From a virus, in the IMG/VR virus record IMGVR_UViG_3300036981_000418, positions 1 through 49,659 of that record: DNA of 49,659 nt. The stretch is one strand, 5' to 3'. The notes beneath the pieces are model-generated. The model searched no databases and was not told where the DNA came from. It saw only the letters and a list, made by a program, of their open reading frames with translations. Each line of letters begins with the position of its first letter. Within the stretch, counting starts at the first letter, position 1. Positions 2,781-49,659 of this stretch are shown piece after piece. Made by a program: the position numbers and the translations under genes.

Positions 2781-3389
2781 TTAGCTTCTCTTAATTAAGA
2801 ATTCTTCTATTTCTTCTTGTGTCATTCCTGTTTTTAAATTCATATCATTTAACCACTCTTTAAAATCATTTAAAGATTTTCTCCAAAAATTAGGCCATTC
2901 TAATAATTGAGAGTCTGTCATCATAAGTAACTCACGTAAGTTATTAGGATAGCCTGGATCTTTATTTAAAAAACAATTTAAAATTCTTACTGACAACCCA
3001 CGATTCTTTTCCCATCCCAGTAAATAATCTGCTAAATTATCTAAAGCCTGTTCACTTAAGGGTTCTTCGAATAATTTTCTAAGTTCTTTATCTTCTTCTA
3101 ATACAGGCTTGTTAAGGTTATTAGTTTCATTATTATCACCTCTTAACCAATCCAACAATTTATCTCTATCGGCTAGACATTCTTCTTTTGTGTCATAAGT
3201 TAAAGCTGCATACGTCATACTATCATCTGAATTTAATTTTAATACAAAATCTCCGGGTGTTTCATATGTATCAATAAATATAGTATTTATATTTTTATTA
3301 TATATACAATAATTCCATCCATCTAATGATGATTCACACATATAACCAATTATATTACCTTCTAACTTAAGTTTACTTTTATTAGTCAT
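2781..3389 (-). CDS. Protein with RNA polymerase alpha C-terminal-domain-like region
   Basis: This 202-residue protein has a mixed N-terminal part (1-85), an acidic helical linker (95-128), and a C-terminal region (131-189) that closely follows the alpha-CTD of bacterial RNA polymerase: GLSVRILNC, a spacer, then LLEWPNFWRKSLNDFKEWL and LKTGM. The E. coli DNA-contact residues Arg265, Asn268, Cys269, Lys298 and Ser299 map to Arg135, Asn138, Cys139, Lys171 and Ser172. Gly296 is replaced by Trp169. Unlike RpoA it has no assembly domain. AAGGAG precedes the ATG at 3389. It is the last gene of the integrase operon. It could bind promoter DNA or sigma/activators as a free alpha-CTD; that is inference. 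The similarity is by eye but covers the whole domain. Confidence 0.75.
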   Translation of the reverse strand: MTNKSKLKLEGNIIGYMCESSLDGWNYCIYNKNINTIFIDTYETPGDFVLKLNSDDSMTYAALTYDTKEECLADRDKLLDWLRGDNNETNNLNKPVLEEDKELRKLFEEPLSEQALDNLADYLLGWEKNRGLSVRILNCFLNKDPGYPNNLRELLMMTDSQLLEWPNFWRKSLNDFKEWLNDMNLKTGMTQEEIEEFLIKRS

Positions 3390-3392
3390 ATT

Positions 3393-3671
3393 CTACTCCT
3401 TTGCAATATCCCCTTTAATACGTTTATCTACTTCCCATATAGCATTATTTACCTGCCATACAGATTTTTTAAGCATATCTTCTTGATAAAATATTCTTTT
3501 ACCAATTGCCATTTTTTCATAACTATCTAATCTTTTGTCTTTTTTATTTTGTAACTCATCATATTTAGTAGCATAAAATACCAATCTTTCAAAGTATTTC
3601 TCTTTGAGATTGGTTAACATATTAATCATGTCATCAAATTGCTCAGGAGTTATAACAACTCTGTTATCCAT
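3393..3671 (-). CDS. Small protein of unknown function, integrase operon
   Basis: The longest reading starts at ATG 3689, but the ATG at 3671 is preferred because the sequence around it (FMDNRV) duplicates the start of the upstream gene (FMDNKV) and overlaps that gene's stop codon. From 3671 the protein has 92 residues. It is helical and rich in Lys/Glu, with no family recognised. Its stop lies 3 bases before the ATG of the alpha-CTD-like gene, so translation is probably coupled. Confidence 0.6.
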   Translation of the reverse strand: MDNRVVITPEQFDDMINMLTNLKEKYFERLVFYATKYDELQNKKDKRLDSYEKMAIGKRIFYQEDMLKKSVWQVNNAIWEVDKRIKGDIAKE

Positions 3672-3933
3672 AAAGCTGTTTTCTATCATTTTTTTCTTTA
3701 TAACTATATTTAAGTTTATCTATAAATGGAGAGTCATCTACTGCAACTATAATAGTAACATTCACGTTTGTTTCTCTATCTAAACTACCTACAAATTTCA
3801 TTTCAGCTTTATGTTCAGAGGATTTTATTGTGCCCATTTCTTGTAAATTTAAAAAGACTAATCCATTAATATCTAGAGCAGTATCAACTGCTTTACAAAG
3901 TTTCTTGAGTATAGGTGCTACTTTATTATCCAT
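3664..3933 (-). CDS. Small protein of unknown function, integrase operon
   Basis: An ATG at 3951 gives 95 residues. The ATG at 3933 (89 residues) is preferred because GGAG lies 12 bases upstream and the start overlaps the preceding stop at 3926-3928. The segment EMKFVGSLDRETNVNVTI resembles MFKGKIDNETNIEVFIKL in the 61-residue protein encoded at 5343-5528, so the two look like paralogues on either side of the integrase gene. Function unknown. Confidence 0.6.
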   Translation of the reverse strand: MDNKVAPILKKLCKAVDTALDINGLVFLNLQEMGTIKSSEHKAEMKFVGSLDRETNVNVTIIVAVDDSPFIDKLKYSYKEKNDRKQLYG

Positions 3934-4267
3934 AAAACTGTTTATCTCCATTTTTTATATTATTCTGTATTTCTTTAAGAAAGTTATCGCGTTGTTCTTC
4001 ATTCGAATAAAATACTTCAATATAATCATCACCAGTAGAAAAGTTAATCTTATTTAACTTAACTTTAATAATATATTCAGATCTACCAGTATGTAATTTT
4101 TTAGTATAACTTTCAAATCCAACGACATCTTCGTTTTTTATAACGTAAGGCTCATTACAAATAGAACGCCGCAATCTATCATAATCTCTAATTTCTTGTT
4201 GAGTAGTTATTTCCCCTTTTTCTTGATTCTTAAGAAAATTATTACTAGGATAATAAATAAAACTCAT
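3926..4267 (-). CDS. Unknown 113-residue protein downstream of integrase
   Basis: The ATG at 4267 lies one base after the integrase stop codon, indicating tight coupling. The protein is polar with alternating basic and acidic stretches and a beta-rich centre (SEYIIKVKLNKINF). No signal peptide, membrane segment or known motif is visible. An excisionase role would fit the position, but nothing in the sequence shows a helix-turn-helix. Confidence 0.6.
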   Translation of the reverse strand: MSFIYYPSNNFLKNQEKGEITTQQEIRDYDRLRRSICNEPYVIKNEDVVGFESYTKKLHTGRSEYIIKVKLNKINFSTGDDYIEVFYSNEEQRDNFLKEIQNNIKNGDKQFYG

Positions 4268-4268
4268 A

Positions 4269-5342
4269 TTATTTATCTCCGAATATTTTCTTATTCATAC
4301 TGCTTACCACATCAGTTATATGTGATTGGGAAAGATGACTATAACGACTTACCATTTGCAAAGATTTATGACCTAATATTTCAGCTATTTCCGTAGCGGT
4401 AGCACCATTCATAGCCAGGTAACTAGCAGCACAATGTCTTAAATCATGAAAACGAAAATCTTTTATATTAGCTTTTTTGAGAACTTGTCTCCATTTATAT
4501 TCTATGGTTATATGTTTAGTAGAAATTTTACTTACAAATACATAACTATCATTACTTTTTTTACAATCATCTAACCATTGTAATAATTCAAAAGCTTTCC
4601 CTACTAAAGGCAATCTTCTAATCTCATTATTTTTAGTCTCATGTAAAATAATTGCATTTTTATCTAAATATACATCTTTCCATTTTAAAGTAAGTAACTC
4701 CATTTTTCTTGCTCCCGTGCTAAGAGCAAGTATTACTAAAATATATAAATCAGGGTGTTTTTCTCCTTTGCATACATCAAGTATAGTATCAAGTAGATGT
4801 TGACGCTCTGTATCAGTTAGATATCTGACCCTTCCTCTTGGTTCCTTTAATTTAGCAATATTCCTCATTGGAGATATTTCAAGCCAACACCATTCTTTAA
4901 TAGCTACATTAAATGCATGATTAAGCACTGCCATGTATCTATTAATAGTGCTTGCAGATCTTTGTTCTTTTATATCTAATTCTAATTGAGCTAATTTATC
5001 TCTGGACTCTACAATCATAGCAGTAGTGATTTCATTTAAATTATAATCACCTAATTGTTTTTTCCACCAAAGTAATTGAGGTTTTTGCTTAGCAATAGAT
5101 TTAGGTTTTCTAATTAAAATATTATCTATATAACGCTCTACTAAATCACTAAAACTATGTTTTTCTTTTATTACTTTTAAATATCTTTTTTCTCTAATAG
5201 CAGCTTCGGTAATGGAAGCCCATTTTTTGCCATCTGCTAATTTATCAAATGTACAACTGACAGAAGGAGCTCCTTTTATATCAATTCTAACTCGATAAGA
5301 AAATGATTTGTCTTTTTTAAGACGTTTTTCAATACTTGCCAT
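4269..5342 (-). CDS. int: Tyrosine recombinase, phage integrase
   Basis: This 357-residue protein has an N-terminal arm-binding region, a core-binding SAM-like domain (about 65-165) and a C-terminal catalytic domain. The catalytic set is complete: Arg212 (STGARKMELLTLKW), Lys237 (HETKNNE), His299 and Arg302 (FHDLRH), His325 (LGHKS) and nucleophile Tyr334 (SRYSHL). It should integrate and excise the element at an attachment site. No tRNA gene was seen nearby to serve as target. It is second in an operon of six genes; its ATG directly follows the stop of the 61-residue gene upstream (TAAATG). Length and motifs are those of ordinary phage integrases. Confidence 0.96.
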   Translation of the reverse strand: MASIEKRLKKDKSFSYRVRIDIKGAPSVSCTFDKLADGKKWASITEAAIREKRYLKVIKEKHSFSDLVERYIDNILIRKPKSIAKQKPQLLWWKKQLGDYNLNEITTAMIVESRDKLAQLELDIKEQRSASTINRYMAVLNHAFNVAIKEWCWLEISPMRNIAKLKEPRGRVRYLTDTERQHLLDTILDVCKGEKHPDLYILVILALSTGARKMELLTLKWKDVYLDKNAIILHETKNNEIRRLPLVGKAFELLQWLDDCKKSNDSYVFVSKISTKHITIEYKWRQVLKKANIKDFRFHDLRHCAASYLAMNGATATEIAEILGHKSLQMVSRYSHLSQSHITDVVSSMNKKIFGDK

Positions 5343-5528
5343 TTAATATTTAGGAATAGGATTTAACTTAATAAAAACTTCTATATTAGTTTCATTATCT
5401 ATTTTACCTTTAAACATAGCATTTATTTCTTCTTCATTATAAACACTCCTTTCTTGTTTTAGATCTAAACCTTCAATAGATTTAATCTCATTTAATAATA
5501 AATCTAATTTTTGATATAATGTTTTCAT
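5343..5528 (-). CDS. Small protein leading the integrase operon (61 aa)
   Basis: The ATG at 5528 has AAAGGAGTAAAAT just upstream, a strong ribosome binding site, and a promoter lies 48-76 bases further up. The N-terminal half is a coiled-coil-like helix (YQKLDLLLNEIKSIEG). The C-terminal half matches the gene at 3664-3933 around the ETN motif. As first gene before int, a small regulator or directionality factor is possible but unproven. Confidence 0.65.
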   Translation of the reverse strand: MKTLYQKLDLLLNEIKSIEGLDLKQERSVYNEEEINAMFKGKIDNETNIEVFIKLNPIPKY

Positions 5529-5575
5529 ATTTTACTCCTTTATTAATATTAATAGTCCAATCTATTAACAAAGTT

Positions 5576-5624
5576 ATTTTATAATAAATCTAATATAATG
5601 TCAACATGGGATATGTAATCCCAT
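5576..5624 (-). promoter_or_regulatory. Promoter and operator of the integrase operon
   Basis: On the minus strand TTGACA (5599-5604) and TAAAAT (5576-5581) are spaced by 17 bases, a near-consensus sigma70 promoter. Immediately upstream of the -35 lies a perfect inverted repeat, ATGGGAT (5606-5612) and ATCCCAT (5618-5624) with a 5-base spacer. It is well placed for an activator or repressor to control integrase expression. Confidence 0.75.
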
Positions 5625-5708
5625 AACACATTAGCTTAAAACCAAGCATAATACTGAAAACTATTTTTTGATTATTTTCAAATAGGAGGATTTTGGGAGA
5701 TTCATAAT

Positions 5709-5740
5709 AAAAAAGACTGATTTTTACTTCAGTCTTTTTT
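5709..5740. terminator. Bidirectional rho-independent terminator
   Basis: AAAAAAGACTGA (5709-5720) pairs perfectly with TCAGTCTTTTTT (5729-5740) across an 8-base loop. The A and T tracts make it work on both strands, ending any transcript coming down from 5839. Confidence 0.75.
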
Positions 5741-5775
5741 ATTACGTAAACAAATATTGGAGAACTTGTTGTTGT

Positions 5776-5808
5776 TAGATCGAGTAAATAATGAAAAAAC
5801 TCGATCTA
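5776..5808. repeat. 10-bp perfect inverted repeat
   Basis: TAGATCGAGT (5776-5785) is the exact reverse complement of ACTCGATCTA (5799-5808), with 13 A-rich bases between. It lacks a following T-tract and is separate from the nearby terminator. It could be an operator or an integrase or excisionase arm site. Confidence 0.6.
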
Positions 5809-5838
5809 GGATTAGATTATAATATTTTATATATAAAA

Positions 5839-6219
5839 TCAACCTGAACTATCTTTAATTTTGTAAGCATACGAATATATTTCTGAAGCTGTCATATCTA
5901 ATAAAATATTTGCATTTAAAAGATTATTAGGTATTTGACTATTTTTAACTGCTACTTCTGCTACTTGGTTTTGCATCTTGGAGAGCCATGGAAGGGGTTT
6001 GGAAAACAATGGAACAGCCAACCGACTTAAGGTTTCTCTGTTTTCTACATAATTTTTTTTATTTTGTCTGAAGCTAAGTCTTAGAGACGGTTTTACGGGA
6101 GAGGGATTTTCCGAGGGATTTTTTTTAATATAAGTACGAGTATTATTGGAATGGATCTCATCTACACCCATTGCCTTATACCATCTTAATATTTTAATAT
6201 CGCTCGAGCTTAATATCAT
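5839..6219 (-). pseudogene. Probable remnant of uracil-DNA glycosylase N-terminus
   Basis: This 126-residue ORF begins ILRWYKAMGVDEI, as family-4 uracil-DNA glycosylases of alphaproteobacteria do. It ends ILLDMTASEIYSYAYKIKDSSG, resembling the linker just before their iron-sulfur GC-x-L motif, and then stops. The catalytic domain is absent and the preceding bases hold no continuation. The centre (about 5990-6120) is less A+T-rich than its surroundings. It may be a decayed gene or a functional fragment; similarity is by eye and modest. Confidence 0.4.
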
Positions 6220-7698: not shown

Positions 7699-9384
7699 AT
7701 GAGTATTAAAACAGTAGAAATTTATCACGGAGATGCAGCACGTAAACCAATGCTAGCCGGTATTAATGAATTTGCAGAAGCCGTTGGGTCAACGCTTGGT
7801 TCACAGGGTAAAAACGTAATCATTGAAAAAGGAGTTGACGGAGTTCATCAAATAACTAAAGATGGCGTTACTGTTGCTAAAAGTATTTATTTTAAAGATC
7901 CATTAAAAAATTTAGGTGCTCAATTAGTAAAAACCGTTACTGAAAAAACTGCTAACTTTATAGGAGATGGTACTACTTCTAGCACTGTTTTAGCTGCTGC
8001 GATGTGTAATGAAGGTTATGAGTATATTCAACAAGATATAAATACCGTTGACCTTAAAAAAGGCTTAGATTATGCAAAAAGTAAATTTATTACATTACTT
8101 GAAAGTTATGTAGATATTATCCCTGATGATAATGATGGAGAAATGGCTTATAAAATTGCTACTATTTCTTCTAATTATGATGAAGATATAGCAGTTACCT
8201 TACGTGACACCTTTAAAAAAGTAGGTAAAAACGGCGTTATAGTAGTAGATAAAGAAATTCAAAGTTCGGAAAAAACTAAAACTATGCATTTAGATCTTAT
8301 TGAAGGATTTAGAGTGGAAAGCGGTTATATTCATAATCAATTTATTTTAGGAAATAGTAATAATAGATGGGAGGCTAATGACTGTAAAATTTTAGTGTTA
8401 CCTATGGATATCACTAATTTTGCTCCGATTCACTCTATTGTAGAGCAATGTGCAAGCAAAGGAGAGCCGATACTGATAATTGCTAATGATTTTACAGGTG
8501 ACTCTGTTAGAACTATGGTAGAAAATAATGCTCGTGGCTCAGTAAAAATATGCGGTATTAAAAGCCCGTCTGTAGGAGAAGAAAAAGCACAAATATTAGA
8601 AGATATATGTATTTATACAGGTGCTAAATATCATAAAACTTCCGATGGTAGGTTTAGAGATGCAATTGTCCGTGAATTTTTAGGAACTGCTGAAAAAGTA
8701 ATAGTAGAACGTACTCATACTACTATTTTAAGCGGGAAAGGTGATCCTATAATGATTCAAAACCGTGTAGATAGTATTACTACTGACATTGATTCAGGGA
8801 CATTAACCGCTTATCAAAGAACTTATTATCTAGCACGTAAAGCTCAATTATTAGGACAAGTTGCTATGATTAAAGTATGTGGTCAAACCGATACCGATTT
8901 ATCTGAAAAGTTAGATCGTGTGGATGATGCTGTGCATGCGACTAAATCTGCTATTACTTATGGTTGTGTACCTGGAGGAGGGTCAACATTATTTAAAATT
9001 TCTCATTTTATGCAAAATTTATTATCGGATAACAATACAAATGGATTTAATGCCGGAATATTAGTGTTTATTAGAGCTTTAAGAGCGCCCATCTCTAAAA
9101 TTATTAGCAATGCTACAGGTTTAGAAGATGTTACAGAATATTTAGATAAAATTAATAAATCAAATCATAAGGAAAGCGGAATATTTGGCTTTGATGCTAA
9201 TACTTCTAGTATAGTCAATATGTTAGATACAAATATTATCGATCCGTATGAAGTAGTAAAATATTCGGTATTAGATGCCGCTGCTGTTGTAGGGATATGG
9301 CTTACTACAGATACGGCTGTAATTAATGTTCGTAAAGATGCAACTGAAAATTTACGTGATTTATTACTTGGAAACGTAGTTTAA
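7699..9384 (+). CDS. Phage-borne GroEL-type chaperonin
   Basis: At 561 residues this is a full-length group I chaperonin. Equatorial motifs are intact: ITKDGVTVA (Asp55, matching GroEL Asp52), DGTTSSTVLA (Asp90, matching Asp87), DRVDDAVHATKSA (Asp410, matching the catalytic Asp398) and VPGGG (424-428). The apical domain keeps GY-x4-F and LIIANDFTG. It lacks the Gly-Gly-Met tail of host GroEL and diverges strongly throughout, so it is not simply the host copy. GGAGATAAA precedes the ATG. No GroES lies nearby; the next gene encodes a 50-residue acidic protein. Phage chaperonins of this kind are known from giant phages such as EL; here it probably folds phage virion proteins, working alone or with host GroES. 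Confidence 0.93.
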   Translation: MSIKTVEIYHGDAARKPMLAGINEFAEAVGSTLGSQGKNVIIEKGVDGVHQITKDGVTVAKSIYFKDPLKNLGAQLVKTVTEKTANFIGDGTTSSTVLAAAMCNEGYEYIQQDINTVDLKKGLDYAKSKFITLLESYVDIIPDDNDGEMAYKIATISSNYDEDIAVTLRDTFKKVGKNGVIVVDKEIQSSEKTKTMHLDLIEGFRVESGYIHNQFILGNSNNRWEANDCKILVLPMDITNFAPIHSIVEQCASKGEPILIIANDFTGDSVRTMVENNARGSVKICGIKSPSVGEEKAQILEDICIYTGAKYHKTSDGRFRDAIVREFLGTAEKVIVERTHTTILSGKGDPIMIQNRVDSITTDIDSGTLTAYQRTYYLARKAQLLGQVAMIKVCGQTDTDLSEKLDRVDDAVHATKSAITYGCVPGGGSTLFKISHFMQNLLSDNNTNGFNAGILVFIRALRAPISKIISNATGLEDVTEYLDKINKSNHKESGIFGFDANTSSIVNMLDTNIIDPYEVVKYSVLDAAAVVGIWLTTDTAVINVRKDATENLRDLLLGNVV

Positions 9385-39737: not shown

Positions 39738-40505
39738 TTAGAATCTAAATGTTACACCGGCAGTAATTGAAGTTGTACTAGTATTAAGCCTTAAAGTTTT
39801 AGAACTTGGTAATATATTTTTATATTTCTGTGGAATCTTTTGCGGATTCATACTAAGGACATTTTTAATATGTATGTCGGTAGATTGTCTAGGAATATAT
39901 TTAACATCGACATTGACGCCAAACGAATCATTACAAGGTATATCAAAGCCAATTTGTCCTACGATACCACCGCCATTTTTAAATTTAATATTACTTGCTC
40001 CACCTTTTATAAAGCTATGTGAATAACCTATGCCTATGTATGGTCTAACATACGCGTCTGGAAAAAAGTAATATTGAATAAGTGCAGTAATAGGTATAAT
40101 ACTTATTGGGCTTAAATTTTTGTTATGAGCGTTTACATAAAGAGCAATGGTATCAGCTTTGCTATTTGTTTCAGTTGATATTTTAATTACTTTATGACCG
40201 ATAGAGCCTTCGATAGCAATATTATCAGTCAGAAAATAACCAGCAGCTATCTCATATATACGGCCATTATGAATTTTAACGTCAGCTTTATTAATCAAGG
40301 CGTTTGGATAAAATTTATTGTTTAGTGTTAAATCTTGTCCATAATTTAAATGGCCTTTATATGCAGAAAACATATAACCACCACGTAATTTAATTATTAC
40401 TTTATTAGTAGGGTTAACAATATCTTCAGCCATAGCAGGCAAAGAAATTATAATGCTCAAAATGCTTATTATTAAGGCTATGCTTGTTTTTTGTAGTGTT
40501 GTCAT
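39738..40505 (-). CDS. OmpW-like outer-membrane beta-barrel protein
   Basis: A signal peptide (TSIALIISILSIIISLPAMA, cleavage near residue 26) precedes a beta-barrel sequence. OmpW-like features are GYFLTDNIAIEGSIGH, ALIQYYFFPDAYVRPYIGIG and a final strand ending in Phe (AGVTFRF), the usual outer-membrane sorting signal. OmpW proteins form small hydrophobic channels and are often surface antigens. As a single gene with its own promoter inside a phage, it looks like a lysogenic-conversion cargo gene. The OmpW call is good; its role is inference. Confidence 0.8.
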   Translation of the reverse strand: MTTLQKTSIALIISILSIIISLPAMAEDIVNPTNKVIIKLRGGYMFSAYKGHLNYGQDLTLNNKFYPNALINKADVKIHNGRIYEIAAGYFLTDNIAIEGSIGHKVIKISTETNSKADTIALYVNAHNKNLSPISIIPITALIQYYFFPDAYVRPYIGIGYSHSFIKGGASNIKFKNGGGIVGQIGFDIPCNDSFGVNVDVKYIPRQSTDIHIKNVLSMNPQKIPQKYKNILPSSKTLRLNTSTTSITAGVTFRF

Positions 40506-48523: not shown

Positions 48524-49659
48524 TTATAGAAGGATTTTATTTACAAATTCACTTATCTCTTTATGACTATAGGGTTTTCTAAAAAACCCTGTAGCTCCAA
48601 GTTCCATAGCTTGAGAATAACTAGCCTCATCAGAAGGATTACTAGCACTTTGAATAATTACCGGAATAGCAGCAAGAGACTCATCCGATTTTATTTTTCT
48701 TAAAACATCTAAACCATGCATACCAGGCATCATTAAATCTAAAAATATAAAATTAATTTTATTTACATTTTGGCTAAGATATTCTAATCCGTCTACTCCA
48801 TTATAAAAACTAATTACTTCATATCCATCATTGTTTAAAATCATTCTCATTACAGCATGAGAAAGTTCATCGTCATCAATCATTAAAGCAGTACCCTTTA
48901 TTGAATTAGAATCAACTTCTTGATCAAGTTTCATAAGTTCTAATCTAGGTAGAGTAAAGTGAAAAGACGATCCTATAATTTTATTTACCGCCCATATTTT
49001 TCCATTATGAGCAGCAATAATCTCTTTGCAAATAGATAAGCCCAACCCTGTACCACTTGTATAACCTTTAGTTTTATTACTTTGTATAAAAGGATTAAAT
49101 ATTTCTTCCAACTGTTGTTCTGGTATTCCAATCCCTTCATCATCTACAATAACTTCTAGATTCTTACCTTGAGTTATCAAAGAGATTTTAATTTTTCCTG
49201 CTTTACTAAATTTAAAAGCATTATCAATTAAATTACGTAAAACTTGATTAACCCTATCTGGATCCATCTTCACAGTGCTGTCTATTCCAATCTGTATATT
49301 GGTCTCAATAACAATGTCTTTATATTGAATGAGATAAATAGACTCGAACTCCACAATTATTGCTTTTAATAACTCTTCTAAATTACCTTCTATCATTATC
49401 ATACTCATTTTACCCGATGTAAATTTTGAAATATCCAAAACATTGTTTATTATTTTTATTAAACGCTTACTTGATTCAGCAATGGTTTTTATAATTTTAT
49501 AATGCTCAGAGTCAGAATACTTTTTCCAATTGTCAGACAATAAGCTTGATAAATTTACTAAGCCATTAATTGGCGTACGTATTTCATGACTTATATTATT
49601 TAGAAAGTCTGTTTTTATATTTAAAGCTTTTTCTAAATCTTCTGACTTTTTTGTTAAAG
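48524..49659 (-). CDS. Hybrid histidine kinase, 3' part (runs off the window)
   Basis: The visible part covers HisKA, HATPase and receiver domains. N-box NLIDNAFKFSK, G1 DDEGIGIP and G2 GTGLGLSICKEII are intact. The receiver has the acidic pair in MIDDDE, phosphoacceptor Asp in IFLDLMMPG and Lys in FRKPYS. The order kinase then receiver is that of CqsS. The frame is open at the window edge, so the start lies outside. Its stop is 12 bases from the SSB stop in convergent orientation, with no junction debris, which suggests it belongs to the element rather than to interrupted host DNA. Confidence 0.93.
   Translation of the reverse strand, partial: LTKKSEDLEKALNIKTDFLNNISHEIRTPINGLVNLSSLLSDNWKKYSDSEHYKIIKTIAESSKRLIKIINNVLDISKFTSGKMSMIMIEGNLEELLKAIIVEFESIYLIQYKDIVIETNIQIGIDSTVKMDPDRVNQVLRNLIDNAFKFSKAGKIKISLITQGKNLEVIVDDEGIGIPEQQLEEIFNPFIQSNKTKGYTSGTGLGLSICKEIIAAHNGKIWAVNKIIGSSFHFTLPRLELMKLDQEVDSNSIKGTALMIDDDELSHAVMRMILNNDGYEVISFYNGVDGLEYLSQNVNKINFIFLDLMMPGMHGLDVLRKIKSDESLAAIPVIIQSASNPSDEASYSQAMELGATGFFRKPYSHKEISEFVNKILL
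49388..49659. repeat. Right copy of 272-bp near-identical terminal repeat
   Basis: It aligns without gaps to bases 1-272, with differences at 49398, 49436 and 49532. The repeat covers the HisKA region of the kinase gene, including the phosphoacceptor His. Confidence 0.95.

Follow-up and report, generated by a model that had tools for sequence, protein, structure and literature searches.

The window analysed here, the whole 49,659-nucleotide stretch of virus record IMGVR_UViG_3300036981_000418, encodes a free-standing C-terminal domain of the RNA polymerase alpha subunit (alpha-CTD) within a 202-residue protein that lacks the assembly domain of that subunit (alpha-NTD). Through the alpha-CTD, RNA polymerase recognises UP elements and is contacted by many activators, and we give a probability of roughly 0.55 to the reading that the window protein is a transcription regulator of the phage, constructed around a captured alpha-CTD and acting at promoters. 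The domain was probably captured from a bacterial, probably proteobacterial, rpoA gene, and comparison with other viral sequences shows that the window protein is no isolated oddity but an instance of a module that phages have acquired again and again. The record has a G+C content of 31% and carries a direct terminal repeat of 272 bases (1-272 and 49388-49659, 98.9% identical), which points to a genome of about 49.4 kb that is probably complete and either circular or terminally redundant. A tRNA scan of the window found none.

The alpha-CTD protein and its operon

The gene is the last of six in a minus-strand operon, in which a gene for 61 residues is followed by the integrase gene and by genes for 113, 95 and 98 residues. 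Its place in an integrase operon had been proposed in the initial annotation and agrees with the gene map, since the integrase and three small genes precede it, neighbouring genes being separated by only a few bases or overlapping. The features are as follows.

5606-5624, no strand: palindrome ATGGGAT-N5-ATCCCAT, the sole perfect site in the window
5576-5604, minus strand: operon promoter TTGACA-17-TAAAAT, top of a consensus scan (11/12)
5343-5528, minus strand: first operon gene, 61 residues (open reading frame, promoter upstream)
4269-5342, minus strand: tyrosine integrase (Phage_integrase, E=1e-30; PHROG 1, E=5.9e-65)
3926-4267, minus strand: operon gene of 113 residues (open reading frame)
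3664-3951, minus strand: operon gene of 95 residues (open reading frame that overlaps its neighbours)
3393-3689, minus strand: operon gene of 98 residues directly upstream of the alpha-CTD gene (open reading frame, strongly conserved)
3396-3401, minus strand: Shine-Dalgarno sequence AAGGAG of the alpha-CTD gene
2781-3389, minus strand: gene of the alpha-CTD protein (202-residue open reading frame with a PF03118 match; full-length relatives at the same place in L002 and L003)
3114-3389, minus strand: N-terminal part, residues 1-92 (no known family; low-confidence model)
3015-3089, minus strand: two extra helices before the alpha-CTD, residues 101-125 (model; absent from the RpoA alpha-CTD)
2820-2999, minus strand: alpha-CTD domain, residues 131-190 (Pfam, phmmer, AlphaFold2 and Foldseek)
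2883-2885, minus strand: codon of W169, at the position of E. coli G296 (alignments)

The hexamers and the spacer of the promoter are kept in five related genomes. The palindrome lies directly upstream of the -35 box, and a single copy is present in all four other genomes containing this region; its arms are invariant in the five genomes while its centre varies. It has the appearance of an operator at the position that the alpha-CTD of the polymerase itself would be expected to occupy, and it probably represents an operator of the operon.

Membership of the window protein in the family PF03118 (RNA_pol_A_CTD) is secure, as residues 131-181 matched with E=1.1e-7 and 31.9 bits against a curated cut-off of 23.8 bits, and the related proteins scored 35.6 and 29.8 bits. 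A phmmer comparison with PDB sequences returned alpha-CTDs of RpoA from E=7e-7 over residues 131-190, the best being the Caulobacter domain, and of the NCBIfam RpoA models only the C-terminal part was matched (best E=1.2e-11, residues 128-196). The remainder of the protein had been described as unlike RpoA and proved so, as neither Pfam nor phmmer with the RpoA NTD detected an RpoA domain outside the alpha-CTD. Lacking the assembly domain, the window protein is not an RpoA, and it is not expected to be incorporated into the polymerase as a subunit.

An AlphaFold2 model of residues 101-202, built from 42 aligned viral sequences, reached a pLDDT of 90.3 and a pTM of 0.82, with block means of 94, 91 and 75 in the first, second and third blocks of the fragment. 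The compact helix-hairpin-helix fold of the alpha-CTD is present in this model, and all credible Foldseek matches in the PDB were alpha-CTDs of RpoA, the top one being a Caulobacter alpha-CTD on AT-rich DNA; the earlier description of a free-standing, portable alpha-CTD accordingly finds support in the sequence profile, the PDB sequence matches, the fold model and the fold search. The outcome named at the outset as a refutation, a predicted structure lacking this fold or matches confined to unrelated families, did not occur. The two extra helices were predicted at positions 2-8 and 13-24 of the fragment. A model of the full-length protein built from three sequences (pLDDT 46.5) was too poor and was set aside. 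For the N-terminal part, a low-confidence model predicts a strand-strand-strand-helix arrangement in residues 1-92; this part gave no Pfam or PHROG match above the cut-offs and, unlike the proteins of other phages in which a sigma or helix-turn-helix (HTH) domain is joined to the alpha-CTD (L047, L033 and L050), no match to an HTH family. Likewise, no PHROGs family matched the alpha-CTD protein.

In the fold alignment, the window protein was about 40% identical to the RpoA alpha-CTD of Caulobacter crescentus (PDB 9zum), with which it shares the helix-hairpin-helix fold and, in E. coli numbering, R265, N268, C269, K298 and S299. Thus five of the six DNA-contact residues are kept and G296 alone is replaced, by Trp, and the alignments thereby confirm what had been noted from the sequence at the outset. 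In contrast to RpoA, the window protein is a phage gene product that has no alpha-NTD but an additional N-terminal domain and two additional helices, and its alpha-CTD differs by a small insertion after 'NKD', by G296W and by the loss of most of the 261 determinant. This loss on the sigma-facing side (D259N and E261G) is found both in the window protein and in its relative in L003.

Close relatives and the variable slot

Searches that used either the integrase or the 98-residue protein as query detected only five other contigs of the same phage group. At the place of the alpha-CTD gene, the six related genomes contain three alpha-CTD alleles (those of the window, L002 and L003), two genes with other C-termini, and one genome without the gene. 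The protein in L009/L014 has residues 1-88 in common with the window protein and then a different C-terminus, so that the N-terminal part also occurs apart from the alpha-CTD; the protein in L010/L016 shares about the first 21 residues before its sequence departs, and L015 has a different gene of 106 residues. The possibility, raised by eye, that the C-termini in L009 and L010 are degenerate alpha-CTDs was rejected, as their scores did not exceed those of shuffled sequences and the hhalign probability was below 1%. These alleles, swapped C-termini and the gene replacement show that the slot is exchangeable and, with two relatives lacking an alpha-CTD there and one lacking the gene, that the function is dispensable or exchangeable. 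The window gene is itself a mosaic: over residues 1-97 it equals the L002 gene at 99.7% of bases, while beyond residue 97 it is nearer to L003 (95%) than to L002 (89.5%).

The alpha-CTD half of the gene has changed mainly at the amino-acid level, with 30.5 non-synonymous versus 2.5 synonymous differences between the window and L002 and 35 versus 3 between L002 and L003. Whereas dN exceeds dS in this half, the integrase and the 98-residue protein are under purifying selection (dN/dS of the latter 0.08-0.22 across the six genomes), and for the pair of window and L002 the alpha-CTD half differed strongly from these two genes (Fisher probabilities of 3e-5 and 4e-4). Set against neutrality, the excess of dN has weak support and is no more than suggestive, with P values of 0.002-0.06 (window-L002 and L002-L003) and 0.1-0.26 (window-L003), which depend on the pair and on the mutation model and come from three pairs that are not independent. 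The three alleles vary at positions 257, 260, 261, 287, 288, 291, 296 and 302, among others, with Gly at 296 in L002 and Trp in L003, while positions 265, 268, 269, 298 and 299 are unchanged. Positions 257, 260, 261, 287 and 288 coincide with, or lie close to, the determinants by which the E. coli domain faces sigma and activators. The reading frame of the alpha-CTD is open in all three genomes, which come from different metagenomes, and the insertion is in frame.

A protein search of genomes found no close relative of the alpha-CTD protein. The nearest kin of the integrase (48-50%) were in an Anoxychlamydiales MAG and in Legionella adelaidensis, and the kin of the terminase (37.5%) in Roseobacter phages. 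Elsewhere in the window we observed a phage GroEL chaperonin (7699-9384; PHROG 5725, E=5e-109), which is kept in L002, L003 and L014, and an OmpW-family outer-membrane protein (39738-40505; E=1.5e-20). A hybrid histidine kinase with a receiver domain is split by the contig ends (48524-49659 and 1-870); it is intact in L002 (577 residues), while L003, L010 and L015 showed only a lone receiver protein at the corresponding position. It adjoins a gene (874-2040) for a distant relative of S-adenosylhomocysteine hydrolase of 388 residues. L015 encodes a cargo protein of 669 residues (3882-5891), a stretch of which resembles, by eye, an OTU-type cysteine protease; this resemblance, if true, would hint at a eukaryote-associated host.

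Viral alpha-CTD proteins beyond this phage group

When 2.9 million viral contigs were scanned twice with alpha-CTD alignments, 27 and 48 loci emerged, which lie on 57 contigs in total (18 contigs in both lists); the encoded proteins measure 93-306 residues. When these were searched for the RpoA N-terminal domain with phmmer, none of the viral proteins tested contained it and only the three cellular controls did, so that the scan proteins are not rpoA contaminants. The window protein fits the working group defined in this way, that of virus-encoded alpha-CTDs without an alpha-NTD. Several other candidates were discarded: the plasmid match H1 (Yoonia), considered as a near full-length homologue, is an unannotated complete rpoA, the plasmid matches H8 and H9 are complete rpoA genes, and the INPHARED matches from Acinetobacter, Salmonella, Staphylococcus, Listeria and Enterococcus are annotated rpoA or host-like sequence in phage records, used solely as cellular references.

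In other phages the alpha-CTD is fused to sigma region 4 (L047/L063, L050, which is a faecal phage record, and the leading gene of a tandem pair in L056), to an XRE-type HTH domain (L033/L084) or to MerR/excisionase-like HTH domains (L068 and L050); elsewhere it is accompanied by coiled coils or followed by helical tails. In L056 (5221-6790) a protein with a sigma-region-4-like domain and an alpha-CTD, a second alpha-CTD protein and a sigma region 4 standing alone (E=8.5e-13) are encoded in a row, a trio that forms a phage set of the promoter-reading parts of the polymerase. Several viral alpha-CTD genes adjoin genes for ERF, RecT, SSB, RusA or exonucleases, and with such neighbours they probably lie in early regions. 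R265, which was outside the search pattern of the scan, is present in 39/39 non-redundant viral domains with a residue there, and N268 and C269 each in 28/39; residues 296-303 were inside the pattern, so their conservation is uninformative. A tree built from viral together with cellular alpha-CTDs rests on about 75 columns and is weak in its details; in it the viral domains scatter among host phyla, and a single viral clade was rejected (p-AU 1.5e-6). Viral alpha-CTDs are thus of more than one origin, the domain having been captured several times by many unrelated phages.

Phage proteins of this type were already known as annotations (UniProt, Goe8 gp5, L02 ORF40). UniProt A0A6J5SA90, from an uncultured Caudovirales phage, is 89% identical to the window protein over 103 alignment columns and thus its close kin, and gp005 of Bacillus phage vB_BmeM-Goe8 and ORF40 of Erythrobacter phage vB_EliS-L02 are, like both of these, short phage proteins with an alpha-CTD. 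Goe8 gp005 differs in its N-terminal part and in having a Firmicutes-like alpha-CTD, and ORF40 is an alpha-CTD protein by annotation in the L02 description (PMC9127768). Among isolated phages, the domain is also present in gp26 of Microbacterium phage Mazun, and Mycobacterium phage Marley1013 and Ruegeria phage V16 gave weaker matches. In the papers searched for free-standing or phage-encoded alpha-CTDs we found only annotation-level mentions and no functional study; new here are the indications of repeated capture, the joining of the domain to HTH domains and to sigma region 4, the slot with its exchangeable content and the raised amino-acid change in one phage group.

Possible functions

Activators and modifiers of phage T4 and the lambda CII protein act through the alpha-CTD/UP-element/sigma-4 site of promoters. 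The T4 system (PMC2988021) and lambda CII (PDB 8igr, a complex also among the structures listed by Foldseek) contact or modify the host alpha-CTD, whereas the window protein carries its own. As a transcription regulator, it would bind A+T-rich minor grooves, for instance UP-element sites, in the manner of the RpoA alpha-CTD and would occupy promoters of the host or the phage at about -40 to -60, either displacing the host alpha-CTD, with the activators that use it, or taking its place, and the N-terminal domain together with the fast-changing 261 and 287 faces may choose the partner. The retained DNA face and the company that the alpha-CTD keeps in other phages, namely sigma region 4 and HTH domains, favour such a role in transcription. 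On the other hand, the helix-hairpin-helix domain may simply be a DNA-binding module, and G296W and the small insertion could alter the DNA contact.

On this alternative view, the domain anchors the protein to DNA with no relation to the polymerase, and the N-terminal domain performs the function, for example in recombination with the integrase. The shared operon, the recombination genes beside other viral alpha-CTD genes and the match of generic HHH profiles to the domain in some relatives fit this proposal, which we nevertheless regard as improbable, since both sequence and fold resemble RpoA and not other helix-hairpin-helix families and the fusions elsewhere are to transcription modules. 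Slightly less doubtful, though still unlikely, is a decoy that occupies host UP elements or alpha-CTD-dependent activators and so lowers transcription from strong host promoters, much as happens when a phage has the alpha-CTD of its host removed or modified. The protein keeps its DNA-contact residues and has no means of joining the polymerase, and the host alpha-CTD is a real phage target: Rac of phage LUZ19, itself no alpha-CTD, is an acetyltransferase that causes cleavage of RpoA and removal of the domain (PMC7552054). However, with its 261 determinant largely lost the protein would be a poor sigma-facing mimic, and its location in an operon with the integrase speaks for lysogeny or early regulation more than for shutdown.

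The variable slot and the excess of dN over dS would also be accounted for if the protein were bait that absorbs attacks aimed at the host alpha-CTD, either by rival phages (proteolysis, ADP-ribosylation) or by host defence; a known phage does attack this domain (PMC7552054). Bait should present a host-like surface, yet the identity of the window copy to the closest cellular alpha-CTDs observed is only about 40%, and no defence gene was identified in the slot, which makes this explanation very unlikely. The least probable reading, to which we give hardly any weight, is a captured fragment of host DNA that no longer has a function: a dN/dS value close to 1 or higher over the alpha-CTD half would suit it, but the open frame in three genomes, interrupted by nothing other than an in-frame insertion, the good ribosome-binding site, the retention of the DNA contacts except G296 and the several captures in other phages speak against it.

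Regulation of transcription at promoters thus remains the preferred reading of the window protein. A wider proposal, which we advance tentatively and consider possible rather than probable, is that the alpha-CTD has served phages, in repeated captures, as a plug-in component for promoter regulators of their own, and that in the phage group of the window its sigma- and activator-facing sides are under diversifying selection in an exchangeable slot of the integrase operon, which would provide strain-specific transcription or immunity. Isolated relatives that are tractable in the laboratory exist in the Bacillus megaterium phage Goe8 and the Microbacterium phage Mazun. The occurrence of the alpha-CTD without the rest of the subunit in phages of several host phyla would point to a general way of rewiring host transcription with the host's own parts, in which the alpha-CTD is joined to sigma region 4, to HTH or to unknown domains.
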